From Thermothielavioides terrestris NRRL 8126 (taxonomy: Eukaryota; Ascomycota; Sordariomycetes; Sordariales; Chaetomiaceae), in contig NC_016458.1 of NCBI RefSeq assembly GCF_000226115.1, positions 8,537,501-8,601,500 on the forward strand: 64,000 nucleotides of DNA, given 5' to 3'. A program made the translations under genes and the position numbers. A model generated the notes under the pieces. That model saw only the letters and a program-made list of their open reading frames with translations. It was not told the origin of the DNA and ran no database searches. Numbering within the stretch: position 1 is the first letter of the stretch; each line of letters begins with the position of its first letter. Shown piece by piece: positions 753-63,781 of this stretch.

Positions 753-1208
753 CTACTCCTCATCCTCGACTTCGTCCTCCACGGAGCGGGGCCGGGTAGG
801 CCAGGCCGACCTGGCTCCCTCTCCGGTGGAACGGGCGCCGAGCTGGTCAAGGTCACGCTCGGTCAGGTCACGCTTCTGGTTCGTGAGGATCTGCACTCCA
901 TCCTCGATGACATCAGGGATGATTTTGGCCGCGCCCTTGAGGATGCTACCGAGGTTGAAGCGGGGATCCAGTTGCTCGAGGTCACGCTCGGCCAGCTCCT
1001 CTTCGTCTCGCTTCTGGTTCGTGAGGATCTGCACTCCGTCTTCAATGACATCGGGGATGATCTTCGCCGCGCCCTTGAGGATGCTGCCGAGGTTGAAGCG
1101 GGGATCCAGCTGCTCGAGGTCGCGCTGGTTGAGCTGCCGACTGGCACCAGGGATCACGGCGGCGCTGGTGACGCCGAGGATGGCGGCGATGGCGATAGCG
1201 TGCTTCAT
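753..1208 (-). CDS. Secreted tandem-repeat peptide precursor (Kex2-type)
   Basis: This 151-residue protein has an apparent signal peptide (about residues 1-20; hydrophobic core AIAIAAILGV, then TSAA). Residues 29-68 and 75-114 are two identical 40-residue repeats. Each contains FNLGSILKGAAKIIPDV followed by a QILTNQKRD end. A third unit starts at residue 117 with ERDLDQL and then diverges into a short acidic tail. KR dibasic sites (66-67, 112-113) and single R before D (29, 75, 118) sit at the unit borders, as in Kex2-processed fungal repeat proteins. The repeats would release a roughly 30-residue amphipathic, near-neutral peptide. The two DNA copies differ at about ten of 120 positions, all silent. 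There are no cysteines. No UstY-type or peptidase gene is nearby. Function unknown: a peptide signal, surface-active repellent or antimicrobial are all possible. The start is the only ATG before the signal peptide. Confidence 0.75.
   Translation of the reverse strand: MKHAIAIAAILGVTSAAVIPGASRQLNQRDLEQLDPRFNLGSILKGAAKIIPDVIEDGVQILTNQKRDEEELAERDLEQLDPRFNLGSILKGAAKIIPDVIEDGVQILTNQKRDLTERDLDQLGARSTGEGARSAWPTRPRSVEDEVEDEE
867..1124 (-). repeat. In-frame tandem repeat, 138-bp period, two copies
   Basis: Copies lie at 1005-1124 and 867-986, separated by a short acidic linker (EEELAE). The encoded 40 residues are identical, while about ten third-position changes separate the DNA copies. Confidence 0.85.
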
Positions 1209-3064
1209 CTTGAAGGTTGGACGGGTTGGTGTTGGTGGGTTATGGTCGGAAGGCGGTTGTGGGCGGTGCGGACGCCGTCAAGTGACTGATCAGCTGGCTT
1301 GGTCAACGAGTGGGAGCCGGATTTGAGTTACCGTGTGACGAGATTCGGTATGACAGGACTTGGCCGGCGCGTGGAGCTTGGACCGTACAACGATACCGTG
1401 AAACGGGTACTGGGGGATTCGACTAGCGAATGGGTGGTGATGCTGAAGCCGAGACTTGCTAATAGCCCTGAAGGAACTTGAAAAAAGGAATGTACGTACG
1501 GCTTTCCAGAAGCCGACACAGGAAAATGAACGGATGGGACTTGCCAGAAGCCCCGGCGTAAGGAATGTGCTTGTGAGTGAGGACCGTGAGTAGATGCTGG
1601 TGAGACAGACAAGTCGCCTGTGTGGGGGGTGTCACTCATTCTTTTATGGCCAACTTTGAGCCAGCAACTGCACTGCACTCGCCACAGGAGACTCTACGAC
1701 GCATCTCTCTAGCTGTTGGCCCTTGTGGAGGAATGTGAGGTATCAGCGCTGCTGCCAATTTTGGCACGAGAAACGACCCAAAATCGATCTCCCTCCTGCA
1801 GCTCCTGACCGTGACCGCGATCGAGATCTCGACTTAGGGGGCAAGACAGGCACTTCGGGCCAACAAGGCCAGATCGATGGTTGAGACACCCATGGGGAGA
1901 CATGAAACAAACGAGCCGTCCCAATGATCGTTCGCCGCCCTTTGGCGTGGCTCGCGGACAAAAATGATCGGGTGAGTTGGTTGGGCTTGATGCCCGTGGG
2001 GGCCAAGTGGTGACCCCTTCCTGGAATTCCATACAGCATGTCCAAACTCATCCCCAACCATCTGCACAGTTATCATTTGGATACGCCTACGGATCGGTTT
2101 AAGGTTTAGCCAGACACAAAGCATTGCACCGGTTTGAAAATGATGAACTCCAGTCGCCGCGACTAAGGTCCTGTTATGACGTAGTAACCCGCTCCCGTAG
2201 ATACTGCCATCAAAAGCAATCCTTTACCATAACTACCTCTTAACGATCGTCCACAGTCGTACCAGAGATATACAGTGACAACGAGACTACAAGGCCTCTC
2301 GGTTGCAAGAAGCTCATAGCAAGTTCTCCCAGAGTGCCTATGGCGTGCTATGACCCCTCGAGGCTCGCGGTTGATTCGCGCAGAAGGGGTATGGTGTCTT
2401 TTCAGCGGTAGACGTAAGTATAGGATCCAACGACCACACGGTAGCATGCGGCGCGGAGACCAGGAGCAGTGTGGGGGCTATGCAGGATGCGGAAAAGAAT
2501 ATGTTGTTTATGTACACAGTACGGACATATTGTGTTAGAGTGAGGTGCTCTCCCAGCCAGGGAGAGGGAACAGAGGTCTATATACGTCCGGAGCAGGCCT
2601 GACACGGGACCAACGTGCGCAATGTGCCACCAGGGGACGGCCTCGGCCCGGTTAAGGAGCGCGTTGGTTTTGGCAGATTCGGCGGATTTGTCATTGGCCA
2701 AACCTCGAAGCGACCAGCCAGCCGTCTTCGAAGAGTACTCTGTTTAAACCACTCTTCTGATGATGCAAGGCATCTCGGCTTCCAAGACTTGACCGCCATG
2801 TGCTCGGTTCAATCCTTAATCGATGATGGAGGTTAAGTTAGTCAACACAGGGACCGATGCACCAGGCCACGCTTCATCCTCGTCGAGATCAGTTCAAAGA
2901 GAATCCAGGGCTCTGAGCCGGGAAAGATGAGATTCTCAGATGCATGTCATTGCGACTTGACACCCGTTTCTTAGTTGCTTCCCATGGTGAGCTGTGGGAG
3001 CGGTACAGTAGCATGGCCATTCCCCTGGAACTCTCTCCTTTCCCTCCAGCTCGTCCGGACCATG
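1209..3064. other. Intergenic, no supported gene
   Basis: 1.86 kb between the repeat-peptide gene and the viperin 3' end. ORFs of 60-116 codons occur on both strands, but none has recognisable motifs or a convincing start. The first part is presumably the promoter of the repeat-peptide gene. Confidence 0.4.
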
Positions 3065-4174
3065 CTACCACTCCAGTTCTTTCTTACTCCCACAGCCGCT
3101 CTCCCCATTCGCCGGCTTCGTCCACTCATACAGCCCTCCGCGCTCCACGAAGGCTTCCTCATCCCAGTACACGCTCTCCAGGGCCTTCTCCACGCCGACC
3201 TCCAAGATCGGCTTGGACGGCTGCTTCCCAGTCCTGTCCAGAAACCGCAGGTATTCGTCCAAGATCAGGTAGCTCTTGGCCATCAGGCGATTCGGCTCCG
3301 GCACCAGGCAGGCCTGCCCGCGGTGGCGCTCGCAGAAGGCCTCGAACTCCTCGTCCGAGATGGTAAACCGATGCGCGTTGCGCAGCGTCTCGTCCGAGTC
3401 GTTCTCGCCGCGCACGATCAGCACCTGGAAGCACTTCCACCGGAAGGGGCGCAGCGCTGCGATGTGCGCGTTCATGTCCTCGGCGACGTTCAGCCTGTTG
3501 ACGACCGTGTTGATCTTGAAGAGGACCCCGTACGTGCGGCACCACTCGGCAATCTGGTACAGGCGAGGCACCTGGTCGCCGCTGCCGCGGCCGATGGCCA
3601 CGTTGGTCTGCTCGTTGAACGAGTCGCACGACACGGCGAGGATGTCGAGCTGGCCGGCGTGCCGGCGCAGGAAGTCCTCGCGCACGAGCGACCCGTTGGT
3701 GACGACGGAGACGGACTCGAGGCGCAGCTCGCGCTTGCAGAAGTCGATCATGGCGCCCAGCGCCTTCGGGTACAGGAATGGCTCGCCGCCGGCGAAGTTG
3801 ATCTTGCGCATGCCCGCCTGCGCGAGGAGGCGGAGGGCCGCTTGCTGCCGCTCGAGGTTCTCGATGTGGGACGTCGTCGCCGTGTGGAAGCAGAAGCCGC
3901 AGCTCTTGTTGCATTGCCGCGTGAAGTGGTAGTTGACGGACACTGGGACTTTGGCGCCTGGTTTGCGACGAGGGCGAAGGGGGAAGAGGCGGCGCAAGTC
4001 GAGCTGCGGGTAGAGACCAACCAGGATGCGGGTGCTGAGGATGAGAATGAAAACACAGAGCAAAAGCGCCGCCGCGACCGCCATGATGATGGTCGCTGAG
4101 TCGTTGTCGTTGTTATGACAGATCCCTGAAGACACGGCGGTTGCAAGACTTGGTGGCGGGCAATCTCCAGCCAT
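3065..4174 (-). CDS. Viperin (RSAD2-like radical-SAM ddhNTP synthase)
   Basis: Radical-SAM enzyme of the viperin family; known members convert CTP (or UTP) to 3'-deoxy-3',4'-didehydro-NTP, a polymerase chain terminator. From the ATG at 4174 the protein has 369 residues (human viperin has 361). It has a membrane segment at about 29-55 (AVAAALLLCVFILIL), then VSVNYHFTRQCNKSCGFCFH with the 4Fe-4S cysteines C88, C92 and C95 (CxxxCxxC). The viperin-specific stretches INFAGGEPFL, CDSFNEQTN, INTVVNR and SYLILDEYLRFL follow, and the protein ends in Trp, the residue needed for Fe-S loading by CIA factors in animals. A second ATG at 4084 would give 339 residues and remove most of the segment before the membrane helix. 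The gene has no intron. It is head-to-head with the NMP kinase at 4568, the same gene pairing as animal RSAD2-CMPK2. Family assignment is very secure; antiviral role in the fungus is inference. Confidence 0.95.
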   Translation of the reverse strand: MAGDCPPPSLATAVSSGICHNNDNDSATIIMAVAAALLLCVFILILSTRILVGLYPQLDLRRLFPLRPRRKPGAKVPVSVNYHFTRQCNKSCGFCFHTATTSHIENLERQQAALRLLAQAGMRKINFAGGEPFLYPKALGAMIDFCKRELRLESVSVVTNGSLVREDFLRRHAGQLDILAVSCDSFNEQTNVAIGRGSGDQVPRLYQIAEWCRTYGVLFKINTVVNRLNVAEDMNAHIAALRPFRWKCFQVLIVRGENDSDETLRNAHRFTISDEEFEAFCERHRGQACLVPEPNRLMAKSYLILDEYLRFLDRTGKQPSKPILEVGVEKALESVYWDEEAFVERGGLYEWTKPANGESGCGSKKELEW

Positions 4175-4567
4175 GGAGGGCGAGGCCCTTAAATCCCCCA
4201 CCCGGTCATCAGGCTTCAAAGGAGAGATCGTGGAGGCAGAGAGTAGGCCTCAGTCTACGGTGACATAAGGAGCTGACTGATGTTTGTTGTTTGCCTAATC
4301 AAGACTCATCTTTCGCTTTTTGGCTGATTCACACGGCTTGCCAATCTGACAAGGCACCCGCACCTGTAGAATGAGTCCCTTTGTTGCGAATGTCTGTGAT
4401 TGGGAAAAGACAGCATGGAAAGCTGTTTGTCTTCTTTTCTAGTCATTCAGACAACATCGGGATTTATTTCTTGGAACCTCGCAGATGCCTCTCCCTCTCA
4501 TTCCCGTCTTTGCATCCCAGGCACCCCAAGCAGTCGGCCAGCCACCCATCATTAAGTAACTCCCAGA
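4175..4567. promoter_or_regulatory. Shared divergent promoter, viperin / NMP kinase
   Basis: 393 bp separate the two start codons, so both genes are probably controlled from this stretch. I could not identify a specific factor-binding site or TATA element with confidence. Confidence 0.5.
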
Positions 4568-5339
4568 ATGGAAATGGCAAATGACCATGGCAAGCCGCGC
4601 TACATCTTCGTCATCGGTAAGTTGACGGCTCTTCCCCCAAATCGCCTGTTAACGGTAAGCCGACCATTCTGAGGCGCTCCCGGAGCCGGCAAAGGGACCC
4701 TGTGCAAGAGGCTTGCGCAGACATACGACTTCACCCACATCTCGGTTGGCGACCTGCTCCGCGAGAAGGCTCACGACACGAACATCAGCAGGTATCTCGA
4801 GAACAACGAGCTGCTGCCGTCGCAGTATCTCTTCCCAGTGCTGCGGGACGCGTTCCGTAATGCTGCGCCTGGGCGCCCCATCATCCTGGACGGGTTTCCC
4901 AGACGGCATGAACAGATCGGCGAGTTTGAGGAAGCGGTGAGTGGATAATCTCTGTGCCATCTCGCGACGGAAGTTTGCTGACACCCCCAGTTCGGCGAGC
5001 CACGTCTCGTTTTGTTCTTCCAGTGTCCCCGCCAGTTGGCCAAAGAGCGTGTACTAGGCAGGAAGGAGGGTCGGCCGGGAGACACCAGCGAGGTGTTTGA
5101 CAAGAGATACAAGGAGTATCTCGAACTCAACCCGCCCATTTTGGACTACTACGGCAGCATCCGGGGCAAGGGCACGCTTGTCGAGGTGAGTTGCGTTAAC
5201 GCTAGGTTAGGGGTCTCTTTCCCAGCTAACCACCTGTAAGCAGGTCAACACCAGCAGCGGGACTGAAACCTCTTGGGAGAGATTGTTGAAAGCATTGCAG
5301 GAGAGGAAGGAGTGGAAGCAGCTGTTGCGTCGTGATTGA
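4568..5339 (+). CDS. UMP/CMP-kinase-like nucleoside monophosphate kinase
   Basis: Four exons (4568-4616, 4674-4936, 4991-5185, 5244-5339) give a 200-residue protein. All introns have GT-AG ends and join in frame. The P-loop GAPGAGKGT lies at residues 17-25, followed by HISVGDLLRE (NMP-binding region) and the DGFPRR substrate motif. LVLFFQCP and GRPGDTSEVFDKRYKEYL, with a short lid, are typical of the UMP-CMP kinase/short adenylate kinase branch. The family phosphorylates NMPs using ATP. Its position 393 bp from viperin, transcribed divergently, suggests that it feeds pyrimidine nucleotide to that enzyme, as CMPK2 is thought to do in vertebrates. Substrate preference (CMP/UMP or AMP) cannot be decided from sequence alone. 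There is no visible mitochondrial targeting peptide, unlike CMPK2. Confidence 0.88.
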
Positions 5340-5567: not shown

Positions 5568-6422
5568 TCACAGACCTCTCTTTCTCATCATCTCGAAATA
5601 AGCCGTAAGCTTCCCCACCGCTTCACCCTCCTCCCACGCCCACGCATACCGCCGCATAAACGCCACAATCCTCCGGTCCATCTCCTCCATCAACACGGCC
5701 TTCTCCCCCTCTCCGATCCCGCCCTCCACCTCAACCTGCAACTCCACCTCCCCGACCTCATGCCCGAAATCCATTCGGTCCCTCACCACCTTGAACTTCC
5801 CATCGACCAACCACGCCTCGCGCGTGGTGACGAACTCGGCCAGCTTCCCCAGCCCAAAATCTCGAACCACCGCCTCCTCAATACCCACGACCTTCTCCCC
5901 GCCCTCACCCTGCGCGTATACTTCTTCTTCTTCTTCTTCTTCCTCTTCATCTGCCGCCGCCGCGTTGGCGCCACAGCGCCGGCCCAGCCCCAACCCCAAA
6001 ACCGCCGCGACGCACCGGCCGACGTCGCGCTCGCCGCGCAGCTCCTCGAAGCGCGAGCGGACAAAGTCGCCGCCGCGCCGCACCTTGGCCTGCCACGCGC
6101 CGTCGCGGCGGCGGACCCAGGCGCCGGCGGCGGAGAGGGCGCGCGTGGGCGTGTCGTAGTAGATGTCGTGGATCGTGCGGGTCGGGAGGGGCTGGACGGA
6201 GGCGAACATGTGCGTGTGCGGAGTATGGGGCTGCTTCTGCTCCGGTCGGTAAAGAGGGCGGAGGGGGAGGTCGGGGCTGTTATTGAGGGTGAGGGAGGGC
6301 ACGGCGAGGCGGCGGAACTTGCGCTCGACTTCGAGGATTGTTGTCTTAGCTGGGCCGGTTGGTGCTGGTGGTGGTCGTGGGGAGAGTTTGGAGAGTGCTG
6401 CACGGGTGGCGCGGATGGCCAT
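5568..6422 (-). CDS. CYTH-domain protein, thiamine-triphosphatase-like
   Basis: The single exon encodes 284 residues. The CYTH signature EVERKF appears near residue 33, then DIYYDTP near 86 and WVRRRDGAWQAKVR, matching the ExExK, YYDTP and RRR/K elements that line the triphosphate tunnel of animal ThTPase. C-terminal features REAWLVDGKFKVVRDRMDFG and VGEVELQVEVE follow the family pattern. Members hydrolyse thiamine triphosphate or other triphosphates with Mg2+. An inserted glutamate run, from a CTT/TTC microsatellite near 5927-5955, sits in a variable loop. The gene is convergent with the NMP kinase (228 bp between stops). Any link to the viperin pair is speculative. Fungal CYTH enzymes may prefer inorganic triphosphate, so the substrate is open. 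Confidence 0.82.
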   Translation of the reverse strand: MAIRATRAALSKLSPRPPPAPTGPAKTTILEVERKFRRLAVPSLTLNNSPDLPLRPLYRPEQKQPHTPHTHMFASVQPLPTRTIHDIYYDTPTRALSAAGAWVRRRDGAWQAKVRRGGDFVRSRFEELRGERDVGRCVAAVLGLGLGRRCGANAAAADEEEEEEEEEVYAQGEGGEKVVGIEEAVVRDFGLGKLAEFVTTREAWLVDGKFKVVRDRMDFGHEVGEVELQVEVEGGIGEGEKAVLMEEMDRRIVAFMRRYAWAWEEGEAVGKLTAYFEMMRKRGL

Positions 6423-57674: not shown

Positions 57675-60600
57675 ATGCCTGCCGCCACTTCTCAGGTCGC
57701 CGCCGAGAACGCCAAGAGCGTCAAGGTTCTCGACGAGCTGATGCAGAAGCTCACCATCTCCAAGGAAGCCGATGCCATCAAGGAATCCACTACTGCCATC
57801 GCTTCCTTCATCAATGGCCGCATCGAGGACCTCGATACCCCCACCAGGTAAGAGAGCGCCCCGCTCACACAAAAAAAAAAAAAAAATTGGAGAACTGGGG
57901 CTGACATGTGACGCCCATTGCCAGGACCGTGGAGGCTCTTAAGAAACAGCTCGCCAACAAGAAGGATGCCACTGTCCGCGAGAAGGCCCTTCTCGCGATC
58001 CAGGCCATCGCTCAGCACTCCGAGGTTTCCGCCCATGTCGAGCCCTACCTCGTCGCCTTGCTCCCCAGCGTCCTGGCTGGCGCTGGTGACAAGATCACGG
58101 CCGTCAAAAACGCCGCCATCGCGGCTGCGCTGGCCATCGCCGAGGCGGTCAACCCCAACGCCGTCAAGGCCGTTCTTCCTCCCCTCATTGACTCCCTGAG
58201 GAACGCCCAGAAGTGGCCCGAGAAGATGACGGTTCTCGACTTCATCGACACCATCATCCGCACCGCCCCTACCCAGACTGCTCTCCGCGTCCCCGATCTC
58301 ATTCCCGTGGTTTCCGAGGCCATGTGGGACACCAAGAAGGAGGTCAAGGACCGCGCCTACAAGACCATGGAGAAGGTCTGCCAGCTGATCGTCAACCGCG
58401 ATATCGAGCGCTTCATTCCCGAGCTCATCAAGTGTATCGCCAAGCCCGAGAACGTCCCCGAGACGGTCCACCTGCTCGGCGCCACCACCTTCGTCACCGA
58501 GGTCCAGGAGCCCACTCTGGCCCTCATGGTTCCTCTTCTCGACCGTGGTCTCGCCGAGCGTGACACCGCCATCAAGCGCAAGTCGGCCGTCATCGTCGAC
58601 AACATGTGCAAGCTCGTCGACGATCCCAACATCGTCGCTCCTTTCTTGCCTAAGATGATGCCTGGCCTCCAGAAGAACTACGAAAACCTTGCCGATCCCG
58701 AGGCCCGCGAGAAGACCAAGCAGGCTCTCGACACTCTGATCCGCGTCGGCAACGTCGTCGATGGCAAGATTCCCGAGGTGCGCAACCACGGTGACATTGC
58801 CACCATCATGGGCCACCTGAAGGACGTGCTCTCTGGCAAGCATGCTGCTGCCTTCGAGAAGTTCACACCCGTGCTCGAGTACGCCGCTGCCATCGCCGGT
58901 CAGCTGGTCGACGAGAAGGCGACGGACGCTGCCACGTGGGCCGAGAGCGTCAAGCCCTACATCTCCGTTGTGGTTGGAGATGCCGAGTCTCAGGGCGTCA
59001 TCGATGCGCTCCGCAGGCGCGCCATCCCTGGCGCTACTGACGAGGACGAAGTCGAGGATGACGAGGAGGAGGGCGAGGATCTGTGCAACTGCACCTTCTC
59101 GCTCGCCTACGGTGCCAAGATTCTGCTCAACCAGACCAACCTCCGCCTCAAGCGTGGCCAGCGCTACGGTCTGTGCGGCCCCAACGGCTCCGGCAAGTCC
59201 ACCCTGATGCGCGCCATCAACAACGAGCAGGTCGAGGGCTTCCCCAAGCAGAGCGAAGTCAAGACCGTCTTTGTCGAGCACGACCTGGACGCGGCCGATA
59301 CGGAAATGACCACCATTGATTGGACCATGAAGAAGCTTGCCGAGGCCGGCGTCGAGACCACCCAGGAGGATGTCGTCAAGCGCCTGAACGAGTTCGGCTT
59401 CACCGACGAGATGATCAAGAACCAGATCACCTCGCTCTCTGGTGGTTGGAAGATGAAGCTCGCCCTGTGCCGTGCCGTCTTCGAGGCTCCCGATATTCTT
59501 CTTCTGGACGAGCCCACCAACCATCTCGACGTGGTGAACGTGAAGTGGCTCGAGGACTACCTCATCAACTCGCCGTGCACTTCCATCATCGTCTCGCACG
59601 ACAGCGGCTTCCTTGACAACGTGTGCCAGCACATCATCCACTACGAGCGCTTCAAGCTCAAGCGCTACAAGGGCAACCTCAAGGAGTTCGTCCGTCGCGT
59701 GCCTTCGGCCAAGTCGTACTACGAGCTCGGCGCCTCCGAGATGGAGTTCACGTTCCCGGAGCCCGGCTTCCTGGAGGGTGTCAAGACCAAGGCCAAGGCC
59801 ATCTTGCGTGCCAACAAGATGAGCTTCCAGTACCCTGGCACTTCCAAGCCGCAGCTCACCGACATCACCTTCCAGTGCTCGCTCGGCTCGCGTATTGCCG
59901 TCATTGGCCCCAACGGTGCTGGCAAGTCCACGCTGATCAACGTCCTCACCGGCGAGCTCGTTCCCACCAGCGGTGAGATCTACCAGCACGAAAACATCCG
60001 TATCGCCTACATCAAGCAGCACGCGTTCGCCCACATCGATAACCACCTGGACAAGACCCCGTCCGAGTACATCCAGTGGCGTTTCCAGACCGGCGAGGAT
60101 CGCGAGACCATGGACCGCGCCAACAAGATCATCACCGAGGCCGACGAGGAGGCCATGAACAAGATCTTCAAGGTCGATGGCACTCAGCGCCGCGTCATCG
60201 GCATCCACGGTCGCAGGAAGTTCAAGAACAGCTACGAGTACGAGTGCTCGTTCGTCCTCGGCGAGAACGTCGGCATGAAGAACGAGCGCTGGGTGCCCAT
60301 GATGTCTGCCGACAACGCCTGGTTGCCTCGTAGCGAGCTGCTCCCCTCTCACCAGAAGCTGGTGGCCGAGGTGGATATGAAGGAGGCCCTCGCTTCTGGC
60401 CAGTTCCGCCCCCTGGTCCGCAAGGAGATCGAGGCGCACTGCGCCAACTTCGGTCTGGATGCCGAGCTGGTATCCCACTCCCGCATGCGCGGTCTGTCTG
60501 GTGGCCAGCGTGTCAAGGTTGTTCTTGCCGCTTGCTCGTGGCAGCGTCCTCACCTGATCGTTCTCGATGAGCCTACCAACTACCTCGACCGCGACTCGCT

Positions 60601-60998
60601 TGGTGCATTGTCCAAGGCGCTGAAGAAGTTCGAGGGTGGTGTCATCATCATCACCCACAGCTCCGAGTTCACCAAGGACCTGACCGAGGAAGTCTGGGCT
60701 GTCATGGACGGCAAGATGACGCCCTCTGGTCACAACTGGGTCCAGGGCCAGGGTACCGGGCCCCGGCTGAAGCAGGACGACAACGACGAGGAGGAGAAGT
60801 TCGACGCTATGGGCAACAAGATCGAGGCGACCAAGAAGAAGGCCAAGCTTACGAGCTCTGAGGCGAGGAAGAAGAAGAAGGAGCGTATGGCCCGCCGGAA
60901 GCGCGGTGAGGAGGTACGTCATCCCGTTAACTGCCACATAAATAGGACATCACAGGTGCTAACTGATCATGCAGGTCTTCAGCGACGAGGACGACTGA
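57675..60998 (+). CDS. tef3: Translation elongation factor 3 (eEF3)
   Basis: Three exons (57675-57847, 57925-60913, 60975-60998) give 1061 residues, close to the usual 1045-1060. HEAT repeats occupy the first ~320 residues, then the helical bundle. ABC1 has GPNGSGKST at about 476, [10 protein letters not shown] and [12 protein letters not shown] near 585. ABC2 has GPNGAGKST at about 719, [10 protein letters not shown] and [12 protein letters not shown] near 938; the chromo-like insert lies between Walker A and the signature. The basic C-terminus ([15 protein letters not shown]) ends VFSDEDD. It is an ATPase that helps release E-site tRNA on ribosomes; found in fungi and a few algae. Codon use is strongly biased. 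Start is the ATG with conserved MPAATSQ. Confidence 0.97.
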
Positions 60999-61806
60999 AC
61001 GTCTCGTTCCTGACTCTTTTTCGTGGCTTCAGCGTGACGATCGGCTATACAAAAAAAGCTGCGTTTTCTTTCTGGGTTCGGGTTGCATGGGCTGGCCTTA
61101 ATGGGATTTTTTTTTTTTCTTCATTTCTGCTTTTCAAGTTCGTCTGGATGATCATAACGCCTCGCATGCCCCCGCTATGTATCGATGAATGGCTATGGAT
61201 GAGACCTCGCCACCCGGGACTGGAGACCCCGGGAAGGCTTAGACTGGGTGCTCCATCGGCCGGACAGGAGGGAAGATAAACTAGACGGAGGAGCAGGAAG
61301 CTGTCTTACGGATAGAGAAGACAATAGAGATCATGATCATACCTAGGTACTACTCTCTTTGTGTTGCCATACTGGTGTTGCCTGTGCGTGTTCCACTTGG
61401 ATGGTCTCGTTCGGCTACACTCTGAGAACTGTGATGACAAGCCTACTGGTATCAAGCAACGCACATGGAGTCATAATGGAGTGCTAACTATCAGGTAGCT
61501 AGGAAACTGAGCCAGATCCACCCTGTAGTATACCGTCCATCCTGTCCTGGTTTATACCTTCCATGGCCTCCGGGATATCATGCCTCCATGTTCCTTTGAC
61601 CTTGTAAGTCCTTCCTACCTAGTTCCCCGACTGGTGCCCGACCCATCCATCCATTGTTTCCTTTTCACTCCATCCGAAACGCCGTCGAAGCGAGGAAAAT
61701 GCCCCGTGGGTTTTGCAAGCTGCCACCGCCTGTCCTGTCTAGCGCCTCTATCCCCTCGTCGTCATGTCGGGTCAAGATGTGCGATTCAGTTACAATCCCG
61801 GCTTGT
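60999..61806. other. Intergenic between convergent genes
   Basis: 3' flanks of eEF3 and the macrodomain gene. Contains a T-run near 61108-61120 but no ORF of note. Confidence 0.4.
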
Positions 61807-62795
61807 TTACTCCTCCCGCTGTTTCTGCTTCTTGCCGGCGTGGCCGGGGTCGGACGGGCCGGACGGGTCGGATGTCGGTGCGCTGGGCAGCTCGCTGGCC
61901 ACGGCTGCGGCTTCGGCGTCGAGCTTGGCTCTTGTTGCCGAGCGCGCCTCGTCTCCGTCGGCGGCGGTCTCGCCGTCGTGGCTGGGGCTGCTGTCCTCGT
62001 CTTCCGGGACGGGCGGGAAGTAGAGCCTGGTGTGGAGGGGGAGCGGGTCTGTTAGTGACGAAGGTAACTGGGGGGAACAAGAAAGCAAGGCAGAGGCAGA
62101 GGGGGGGCGTACGGAATACACTCGTTGTACGCATCCACGTCCTTCATCTCGTACGTCACGATCACCACCTTGTCGATCGCCCCGCCGCGCGGGCCGAGCA
62201 GGAACTGGCGGATCGCGCTCAGCGCCGCCGGCGCCGCGTCCCGGCTCGGATACCCGTACACGCCCGTGCTGATGGCGCTGAAGGCCACGCTGCGGCACCC
62301 GCCCTCGACCGCCAGCTCCAGCGACCGCGTGTAGCACCCCGTCAGCAGCCGCTCGCTCTTCTCGTGCGCGAACGGGTCGTAGATGGGCCCCACCGCGTGG
62401 ATCACCTTCCGGCACGGCAGGTCGTAGCCGTTCGTCATCTTGGCCGAGCCGGTCGCGCAGCCGCCCAGCGTGCGGCACTCGTCATACAGGCCCGGGCCGG
62501 CGGCCCGGTGGATTGCGCCGTCGACGCCGCCGCCGCCGAGCAGCGAGCGGTTGGCCGCATTGACGATCGCGTCGATCGCCAGCGTCGTGATGTCGCCGCG
62601 GAAGAGCGCCACGCGGTCGTTGAGGAACTTGGACGGCGCCGGGAGGGACGTGCCGTTCGGGCCGAGAAGGGTCGTCGGCAGCGGGGTGTCGGGCGGCGCC
62701 GGGGAGAGCTTGCGCAGCTTGTAGAGGAGGGAGAGGGAGGGGATGTCGGAACTCGCGAGCCGGGGCATTCTGGCGGCCATTTTGCGAAGAAACAT
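61807..62795 (-). CDS. Macrodomain protein (MacroD/ADP-ribose hydrolase-like)
   Basis: Two exons (62113-62795, 61807-62026) give 300 residues. The macrodomain starts with [36 protein letters not shown] (adenine-binding D and the NAAN/GGGGVDG loop). [25 protein letters not shown] and [11 protein letters not shown] follow, as in MacroD-type enzymes that remove mono-ADP-ribose from acidic residues or hydrolyse O-acetyl-ADP-ribose. The second exon adds [12 protein letters not shown] and an acidic/Ala-rich tail ending KKQKQREE. The first ATG and M6 are both possible starts. Upstream residues are weakly mitochondrial-like. Confidence 0.9.
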
Positions 62796-63781
62796 GTGCG
62801 AGCGGGGTGCTGGGCCGGTTGTTGGTTTTGATGCAGTCAGTCGGAGGATGATGTCGATGTGGGGTTAAGACGGAGGAAATACGAAAGTCGCAGTCGTGTG
62901 CTCTGCGGGGTTGTTGGTATCGTACCGGGGGAAAGGGTCCGCCGGCTGTTGCCAAGTAGCAGCTGGCGTCTTCATGCACCAGCAGCGGGCAATATGGACT
63001 CGGAGCGGCCCGGGGGTGCAGTTAATGTGATGCAAGAAGACGGCCCGAGTGATGGGACCCCGGGTCGGCTGTGGATGAGACCTTTGAGAAGGCGGGGTTG
63101 GAGGTTGGCTGCTCCCGCTCAATTAATTGTCCTCAGCAACTTTTAGCTGCTGTTTGCCATGGAAATCCACTCAATGCATCGATTCGGTATGAGAAGCATT
63201 CTCACGGCTCGCAACGGGCCACGGGCTGCACTCAGGTGGAAAGGTCGAGAATCAATGTCCGCGAATGATATCGTGCCAGTAAGGCCTGTCAAGCCCGAAA
63301 ACGGGACGCCGAGTGGTCTGGACTTTTTTCGTGCAGCTTCCAGGCACCAAAAAGCAGTCCAACCCCGGCACAGCCTCACCTCGCTGTTTCCTATCTTATC
63401 TTATCGCTCGTAATGTTCCCGGTTATCTGACGCTGAGTGCCTGAGACCAACCCCTGTCGTGTGGGCTGTTGCCCGCTTGCCCCTCCCTGCTTGTTCTCTG
63501 TGCCCCTCCAATAATTTTGCCGGGCCCAACCGCAAGCGGGCTTGACTCACCCAGACCCTGTGTAGCTTGGGAAGGACTACGCGATTTCCATCGCTCGAGT
63601 TTGTGACGAGTTGGCGAAAAAGTGCATTCGCCTAGTACAAGACATCCAAGACTTCGACCGAATTCCCAAGCTTGACAATTTTTTTTAAGGCCTCGGCACA
63701 ATCGTCCATCGTCTCTCGAGCAGGAGGCGAGGCGTCCCTCAACGACGGGTGACAAGCAACGAACAACCCTTTCAGGAGACA
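62796..63781. other. Divergent intergenic region, macrodomain / KRS
   Basis: Upstream regions of both genes; no supported gene. ORFs under 170 codons show no features. Confidence 0.4.

Follow-up and report, generated by a model that had tools for sequence, protein, structure and literature searches.

The vertebrate viperin gene RSAD2 adjoins, in inverted orientation, the gene for the kinase CMPK2, which supplies the substrate of viperin (a passage of PMC10058120), and 15% of bacterial viperin genes adjoin a gene for a CMPK2-like kinase (a passage of PMC11249213). PADLOC lists both VakA (viperin-associated kinase) and a viperin-kinase fusion (pVip-kinase). According to passages of PMC9642334, the viperin of the fungus Thermothielavioides terrestris accepts CTP, UTP and 5-Br-UTP as substrates and forms ddhCTP and ddhUTP. 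Viperin-kinase pairs in vertebrates and prokaryotes and the ddh products of the T. terrestris enzyme are thus already known. A fungal viperin-kinase pair is not described in the titles and abstract openings of the open-licence literature searched, nor is it mentioned in passages of PMC10732462, PMC11185175, PMC8124187, PMC12988326 and PMC12114427. A search for mycovirus papers that also name viperin gave nothing of use; in the one examined, viperin occurs only in the title of a reference. The abstract of Shomar et al. 2024 (Nat Ecol Evol) reportedly attributes the diversification of eukaryotic viperins to partners, in particular nucleotide kinases, with which they remain genetically linked; that work may already cover the fungal pair. 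Here we describe a divergent viperin-kinase gene pair of T. terrestris and its conservation among filamentous ascomycetes.

The viperin gene and its divergent neighbour

The window, a stretch of 64,000 nucleotides from T. terrestris NRRL 8126, contains a viperin gene (minus strand) that diverges head-to-head from a nucleotide kinase gene (plus strand). The viperin (SAND) gene (3065..4084, minus) is a single exon with one open frame encoding 339 aa; its start at 4084 is the better supported one because the homologue P0121, from another T. terrestris assembly, begins at the same Met. The protein carries the radical-SAM motif CNKSCGFC (CX3CX2C), passes the NF038283 "viperin family" model (256.9 bits, cut-off 180) and scores 392.5 bits on TIGR04278 "antiviral radical SAM protein viperin", under the cut-off of 450 for that model. 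Its best solved relative is 6b4c (E 9.6e-148), which comes from Trichoderma virens according to a table of PMC8124187. A search of the whole T. terrestris genome returned one match, indicating a single-copy gene. The protein begins with a hydrophobic stretch and ends in Trp, two features likewise found in animal viperin. Since the species is the same and the gene is single-copy (accessions form no part of this argument), the viperin of the window is almost certainly the very TtRSAD2 (fungal SAND) characterized before; the earlier description differs in that a term search of the main text of PMC9642334 did not find the word "kinase". The suggestion of the initial annotation that this viperin makes ddhCTP or a relative is supported by the published ddhCTP and ddhUTP.

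The two divergent starts, at 4084 for viperin and 4568 for the kinase, enclose 483 bp (4085..4567), which we regard as a putative shared promoter. A divergent promoter of 393 bp had been annotated initially; the divergent gap is real, but the length of 393 bp hinges on a less supported in-frame viperin ATG at 4174. No repeats were found in 4085..4567, and a scan of the gap for bacterial-type promoter patterns, which is not meant for fungi, gave nothing useful. The arrangement as such, a full viperin head-to-head with a P-loop NMP kinase, is confirmed by motifs, family models and exon reading.

The kinase gene and its family

The kinase gene encodes 200 aa in four exons on the plus strand. Exon 1 (4568..4616) is followed by an intron (4617-4673) that splits the first Gly codon of the P-loop; exon 2 (4674..4936) holds the P-loop, the NMP-binding segment and the HISVGDLLR and DGFPR motifs; exon 3 (4991..5185) encodes a short LID with conserved Arg/Asp residues; and exon 4 (5244..5339) is missing from the public gene model THITE_2046475 (P0001), which consists of exons 2 and 3 and intron read-through only. 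Several public models in this kinase clade (among them P0001, P0044, P0050, P0055 and P0269) begin with the P-loop or immediately ahead of it, as would be expected if the relatives, too, had a short first exon whose end falls within the P-loop; gene models of the clade need care.

A match to PF00406 (96.2 bits against a cut-off of 26.8, scored on a 201-aa draft with one glycine too many) places the protein among the NMP kinases of the ADK superfamily, and no match to PF02223 was found at E <= 0.001. Besides the kinase itself, the UMP/CMP kinase URA6 was the only genome match at E <= 0.001, with 38% identity. Identity with URA6 was rejected, as the URA6 gene lies on another contig (C5:2336076-2336552) and the two are separated in the tree. 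There the kinase belongs to a fungal clade of its own within the adenylate/UMP kinase superfamily (67 rows, branch support 99). The tree and the residue counts below take in 66 listed fungal kinases; most of those that were short, incomplete or nearly duplicated were set aside, as were additional fungal hits. The 67 clade rows count the window kinase twice, once as the public model P0001. Arg46, Arg124, Arg128, Arg132, Arg143, Asp89 and Asp135 are kept in all 67 rows, and the P-loop Lys and Arg93 in 66, with one gap each, so that the catalytic residues of the kinase are kept. The likeness to URA6 extends to the fold, the catalytic arginines and the short LID, whereas clade membership, family-model score and the residue at the SxG position set the two apart (see below).

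Linkage of the viperin and kinase genes in fungi

Relatives of the kinase (the best 120 of 129 and the best 120 of 7356 matches) and of viperin (the best 120 of 2317) were compared by species name, and linkage was scored where both genes lie on contigs of identical length; species in one list only and unnamed metagenome sequences were excluded before counting. Thirty-three species are named in both lists: T. terrestris itself, 26 in which the genes are linked, three in which they are not and three that are undecidable among the matches listed. Trichoderma harzianum, T. asperelloides and T. reesei were left out, their listed sequences coming from different strains or clusters. Among the matches listed, linkage is therefore found in 26 of the 29 decidable species besides T. 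terrestris, and the conserved fungal linkage that the initial annotation had named as a strong sign of a shared system does exist.

The species with contigs of identical length are Chaetomium strumarium, Chaetomidium leptoderma, Staphylotrichum tortipilum, Parathielavia hyrcaniae, Madurella mycetomatis, Podospora fimiseda, Humicola hyalothermophila, Lineolata rhizophorae, Trichoderma citrinoviride, T. ghanense, T. gracile, T. ceciliae, T. viride, T. chlorosporum, Melanomma pulvis-pyrius, Glonium stellatum, Periconia macrospinosa, Cladorrhinum sp. PSN332, Aspergillus indologenus, A. avenaceus, A. coremiiformis, Amniculicola lignicola, Immersiella caudata, Myriangium duriaei, Cucurbitaria berberidis and Escovopsis weberi. 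Ten of the 26 shared contigs measure only 6 to 117 kb (Humicola 6,222, Periconia 8,288 and Glonium 8,440), and consecutive gene tags are found in S. tortipilum (43445/43446), H. hyalothermophila (1863/1862), T. gracile (008360/008361) and T. viride (006842/006841). Orientation and exact gap were read directly in the T. terrestris window alone; long contigs elsewhere show a shared contig, not a distance. The six linked species whose classification was looked up belong to the Sordariomycetes (T. ghanense and H. hyalothermophila), Dothideomycetes (Glonium, Lineolata and Myriangium) and Eurotiomycetes (A. avenaceus), and in all 26 the kinase falls inside the clade of the window kinase. The persistence of the pair in many distantly related moulds suggests a joint function.

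With random placement in genomes of 36.9 Mb each, 0.8 of 29 pairs would be expected on the same contig and the chance of finding 26 would be about 1e-50, a figure that gives only a scale because the calculation ignores kinship among the species and takes all genomes to be of one size. The mean pairwise identity over 27 pairs is 48% for the kinase versus 68% for viperin. The r of 0.72 from a Mantel test is accounted for by shared species history and is given no weight. A search of genome contigs with fungal viperins found no relative.

The genes are not linked in Thermocarpiscus australiensis (contigs of 60,835 and 159,626) or in Phaeosphaeriaceae sp. PMI808 (322,220 and 872,438). In the third such species, Parastagonospora nodorum (clusters P0234 and P0248), the viperin cluster is represented on 139 contigs but the kinase cluster on only 4, and the longest contigs differ; given these unequal numbers, the kinase may be accessory in this species.

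Fusion of viperin to a kinase of this type in fungi was rejected, as not one of the best 120 of 2317 viperins matches the profile of the window kinase family, the only profile used in that search; viperin P0217 bears a precomputed PF13521 label. The kinase is adjoined on its other side by a CYTH (triphosphatase-type) gene (5568..6422, minus), which we do not claim as part of the module. The 584-aa model P0138 of Mycothermus thermophilus, probably a merged gene model, joins a CYTH-homologous stretch to viperin, so these two genes seem to be neighbours in Mycothermus too. No Mycothermus kinase occurs among the best 120 of 129 or the best 120 of 7356 matches.

Comparison with vertebrate and prokaryotic viperin kinases

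The T. terrestris locus shares with vertebrate RSAD2-CMPK2 a viperin gene beside a nucleotide kinase gene in inverted orientation. Vertebrate CMPK2 is a member of the thymidylate-kinase family and is mitochondrial, whereas the window kinase belongs to PF00406 (ADK type), has a short LID and lacks an N-terminal extension. The supply-and-conversion logic of CMPK2, which had been carried over to this locus in the initial annotation, holds as an analogy only, since the fungal kinase belongs to a different P-loop kinase family.

The prokaryotic systems VakA and pVip-kinase resemble the fungal locus in having a kinase adjacent or fused to viperin, but the 11 prokaryotic partners scanned are of the thymidylate-kinase/dNK or Cytidylate_kin2 type. 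VakA matches the window kinase over residues 13-55 only (E 1.4e-4); of three other fungal members, two gave no match and one matched in the P-loop region only, while three prokaryotic viperin partners match VakA over nearly their whole length. With neither a PF02223 match at E <= 0.001 nor a full-length VakA match, the window kinase does not fall within the CMPK2/VakA type. Among 16 plasmid records with a viperin-like match, eight regions were examined; in three of them a nucleotide kinase is annotated close to viperin, in each case of the PF02223/PF01712 type. A survey of the best 80 of 136 prokaryotic loci (flanks of <=3 kb, ORFs of >=90 aa, two profiles only) found a thymidylate-kinase-type ORF in 10 and a weak ADK-profile ORF in 7. 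Three of the former were scanned and all match PF02223; five of the latter were scanned and have Cytidylate_kin2 as their best kinase match, two of the five being fused to viperin. In Flavobacteria, viperin and a Cytidylate_kin2-type kinase are fused at L055:2971-4407 and L063:2434-3879, the kinase being C-terminal in one case and N-terminal in the other.

Descent of the window kinase from a prokaryotic viperin kinase was rejected as far as tested, the scanned partners being Cytidylate_kin2 or PF02223 types. Because vertebrate CMPK2 and the prokaryotic viperin partners scanned are of other kinds, the fungal pairing looks like a separate recruitment from another kinase family.

Proposed function of the gene pair

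We propose that the kinase most likely feeds pyrimidine nucleotides to viperin. The kinase would use ATP to phosphorylate UMP and/or CMP, a general cellular NDP kinase would carry the resulting diphosphates on to UTP/CTP, and viperin, presumably held on the cytosolic membrane face by its N-terminal helix, would convert these to ddhUTP/ddhCTP, which may terminate viral RNA chains. Transcribed divergently from a single region, the two genes would be induced together. That the two genes form such a co-switched, antiviral functional pair is, on balance, the reading we favour. It builds on the two genes, their linkage, their intact active sites and the distinct kinase clade, all of which were observed, and is further supported because the kinase is an extra paralogue beside URA6, because T. 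terrestris viperin is published to act on CTP, UTP and 5-Br-UTP, and because vertebrate CMPK2-RSAD2, the CMPK2-like neighbours of bacterial viperins and PADLOC VakA and its fusion are precedents. Against it stand the three species without linkage, the lower conservation of the kinase relative to viperin, and a specificity that neither the family models nor the fold separates between UMP/CMP and AMP. Gln97 also counts against it: the kinase shares this residue with AK1 and URA6, where human and slime-mould UMP/CMP kinases have Asn.

The kinase scores 116.1 bits on TIGR01359 (UMP/CMP), below the cut-off of 207.6, whereas T. terrestris URA6 reaches 227.5; on the AK1 family model, too, it stays under the cut-off. 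The label "UMP/CMP-kinase-like" given to it initially therefore survives as PF00406 NMP kinase, but not as membership of the URA6 clade or of TIGR01359. TIGR01360 (AK1) outscores TIGR01359 in two of five clade members scanned, and the fold of a predicted model of a close homologue resembles AK1 and UMP kinases equally. Both results would suit an enzyme resembling adenylate kinase that serves energy metabolism or salvage in general and is linked to viperin by shared stress regulation and not by one pathway; we hold this to be unlikely, as the T. terrestris genome already has two long-LID adenylate kinase genes (LID judged by eye) besides URA6, and only one of the 67 clade rows has the Thr that human AK1 carries at the SxG position.

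This SxG position, which we take to sit near the base, is Val, Ile or Leu in 65 of the 67 rows (Val in the window kinase) and Ala in four URA6-type controls; since the residue differs from both URA6-type enzymes and AK1, the base pocket seems peculiar to the clade. Such a pocket, together with the presence of the general NMP kinase URA6 in the genome, could point to a kinase that still partners viperin but rephosphorylates ddhNMP from excised or degraded terminators and so recharges the ddhNTP pool. We rate this as rather unlikely, because the changed residue presumably faces the base and not the 3'/4' carbons that viperin alters. Inherited synteny without functional meaning is the least probable explanation: the CYTH gene, which seems to stay near viperin in Mycothermus, suggests that some local order is kept in near relatives, and the 139 viperin contigs of P. 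nodorum against 4 for the kinase also speak for it, but the linkage spans three classes across which local gene order is otherwise heavily shuffled, and a kinase that diverges fast and is apparently dispensable nevertheless remains beside viperin.

The supply of pyrimidine nucleotides to viperin may be part of a larger picture, which we put forward tentatively: a third kind of viperin partner, a dedicated ADK/UMP-superfamily clade whose base pocket is distinctive, would have been recruited independently in filamentous ascomycetes and kept beside viperin across several classes of Pezizomycotina, making pyrimidine analogues, or recycling them as ddhNMP, in an inducible system against mycoviruses or transposon RNA. 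If true, a third, separately recruited viperin kinase would argue strongly, by comparison across lineages, that viperin is limited by the supply of its substrate, and a genetically tractable eukaryote would be at hand for testing the making and tolerance of chain-terminating nucleotides. It would also bear on mycovirus resistance in fungi, which are without interferon.

Other genes in the window

The product of a gene at 753-1277 (minus) is small, looks secreted and contains, twice in almost the same form, a segment that ends in Lys-Arg; the DNA here has a 138-bp repeat with 91% matches. The protein resembles a kexin-processed repeat peptide precursor and has a weak match to Pfam Antimicrobial_4 (E 7.2e-6). 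Towards the far end of the window lie a gene for an EF3-like ABC protein (57905-61276, plus) and a macro-domain gene (62055-62864, minus).
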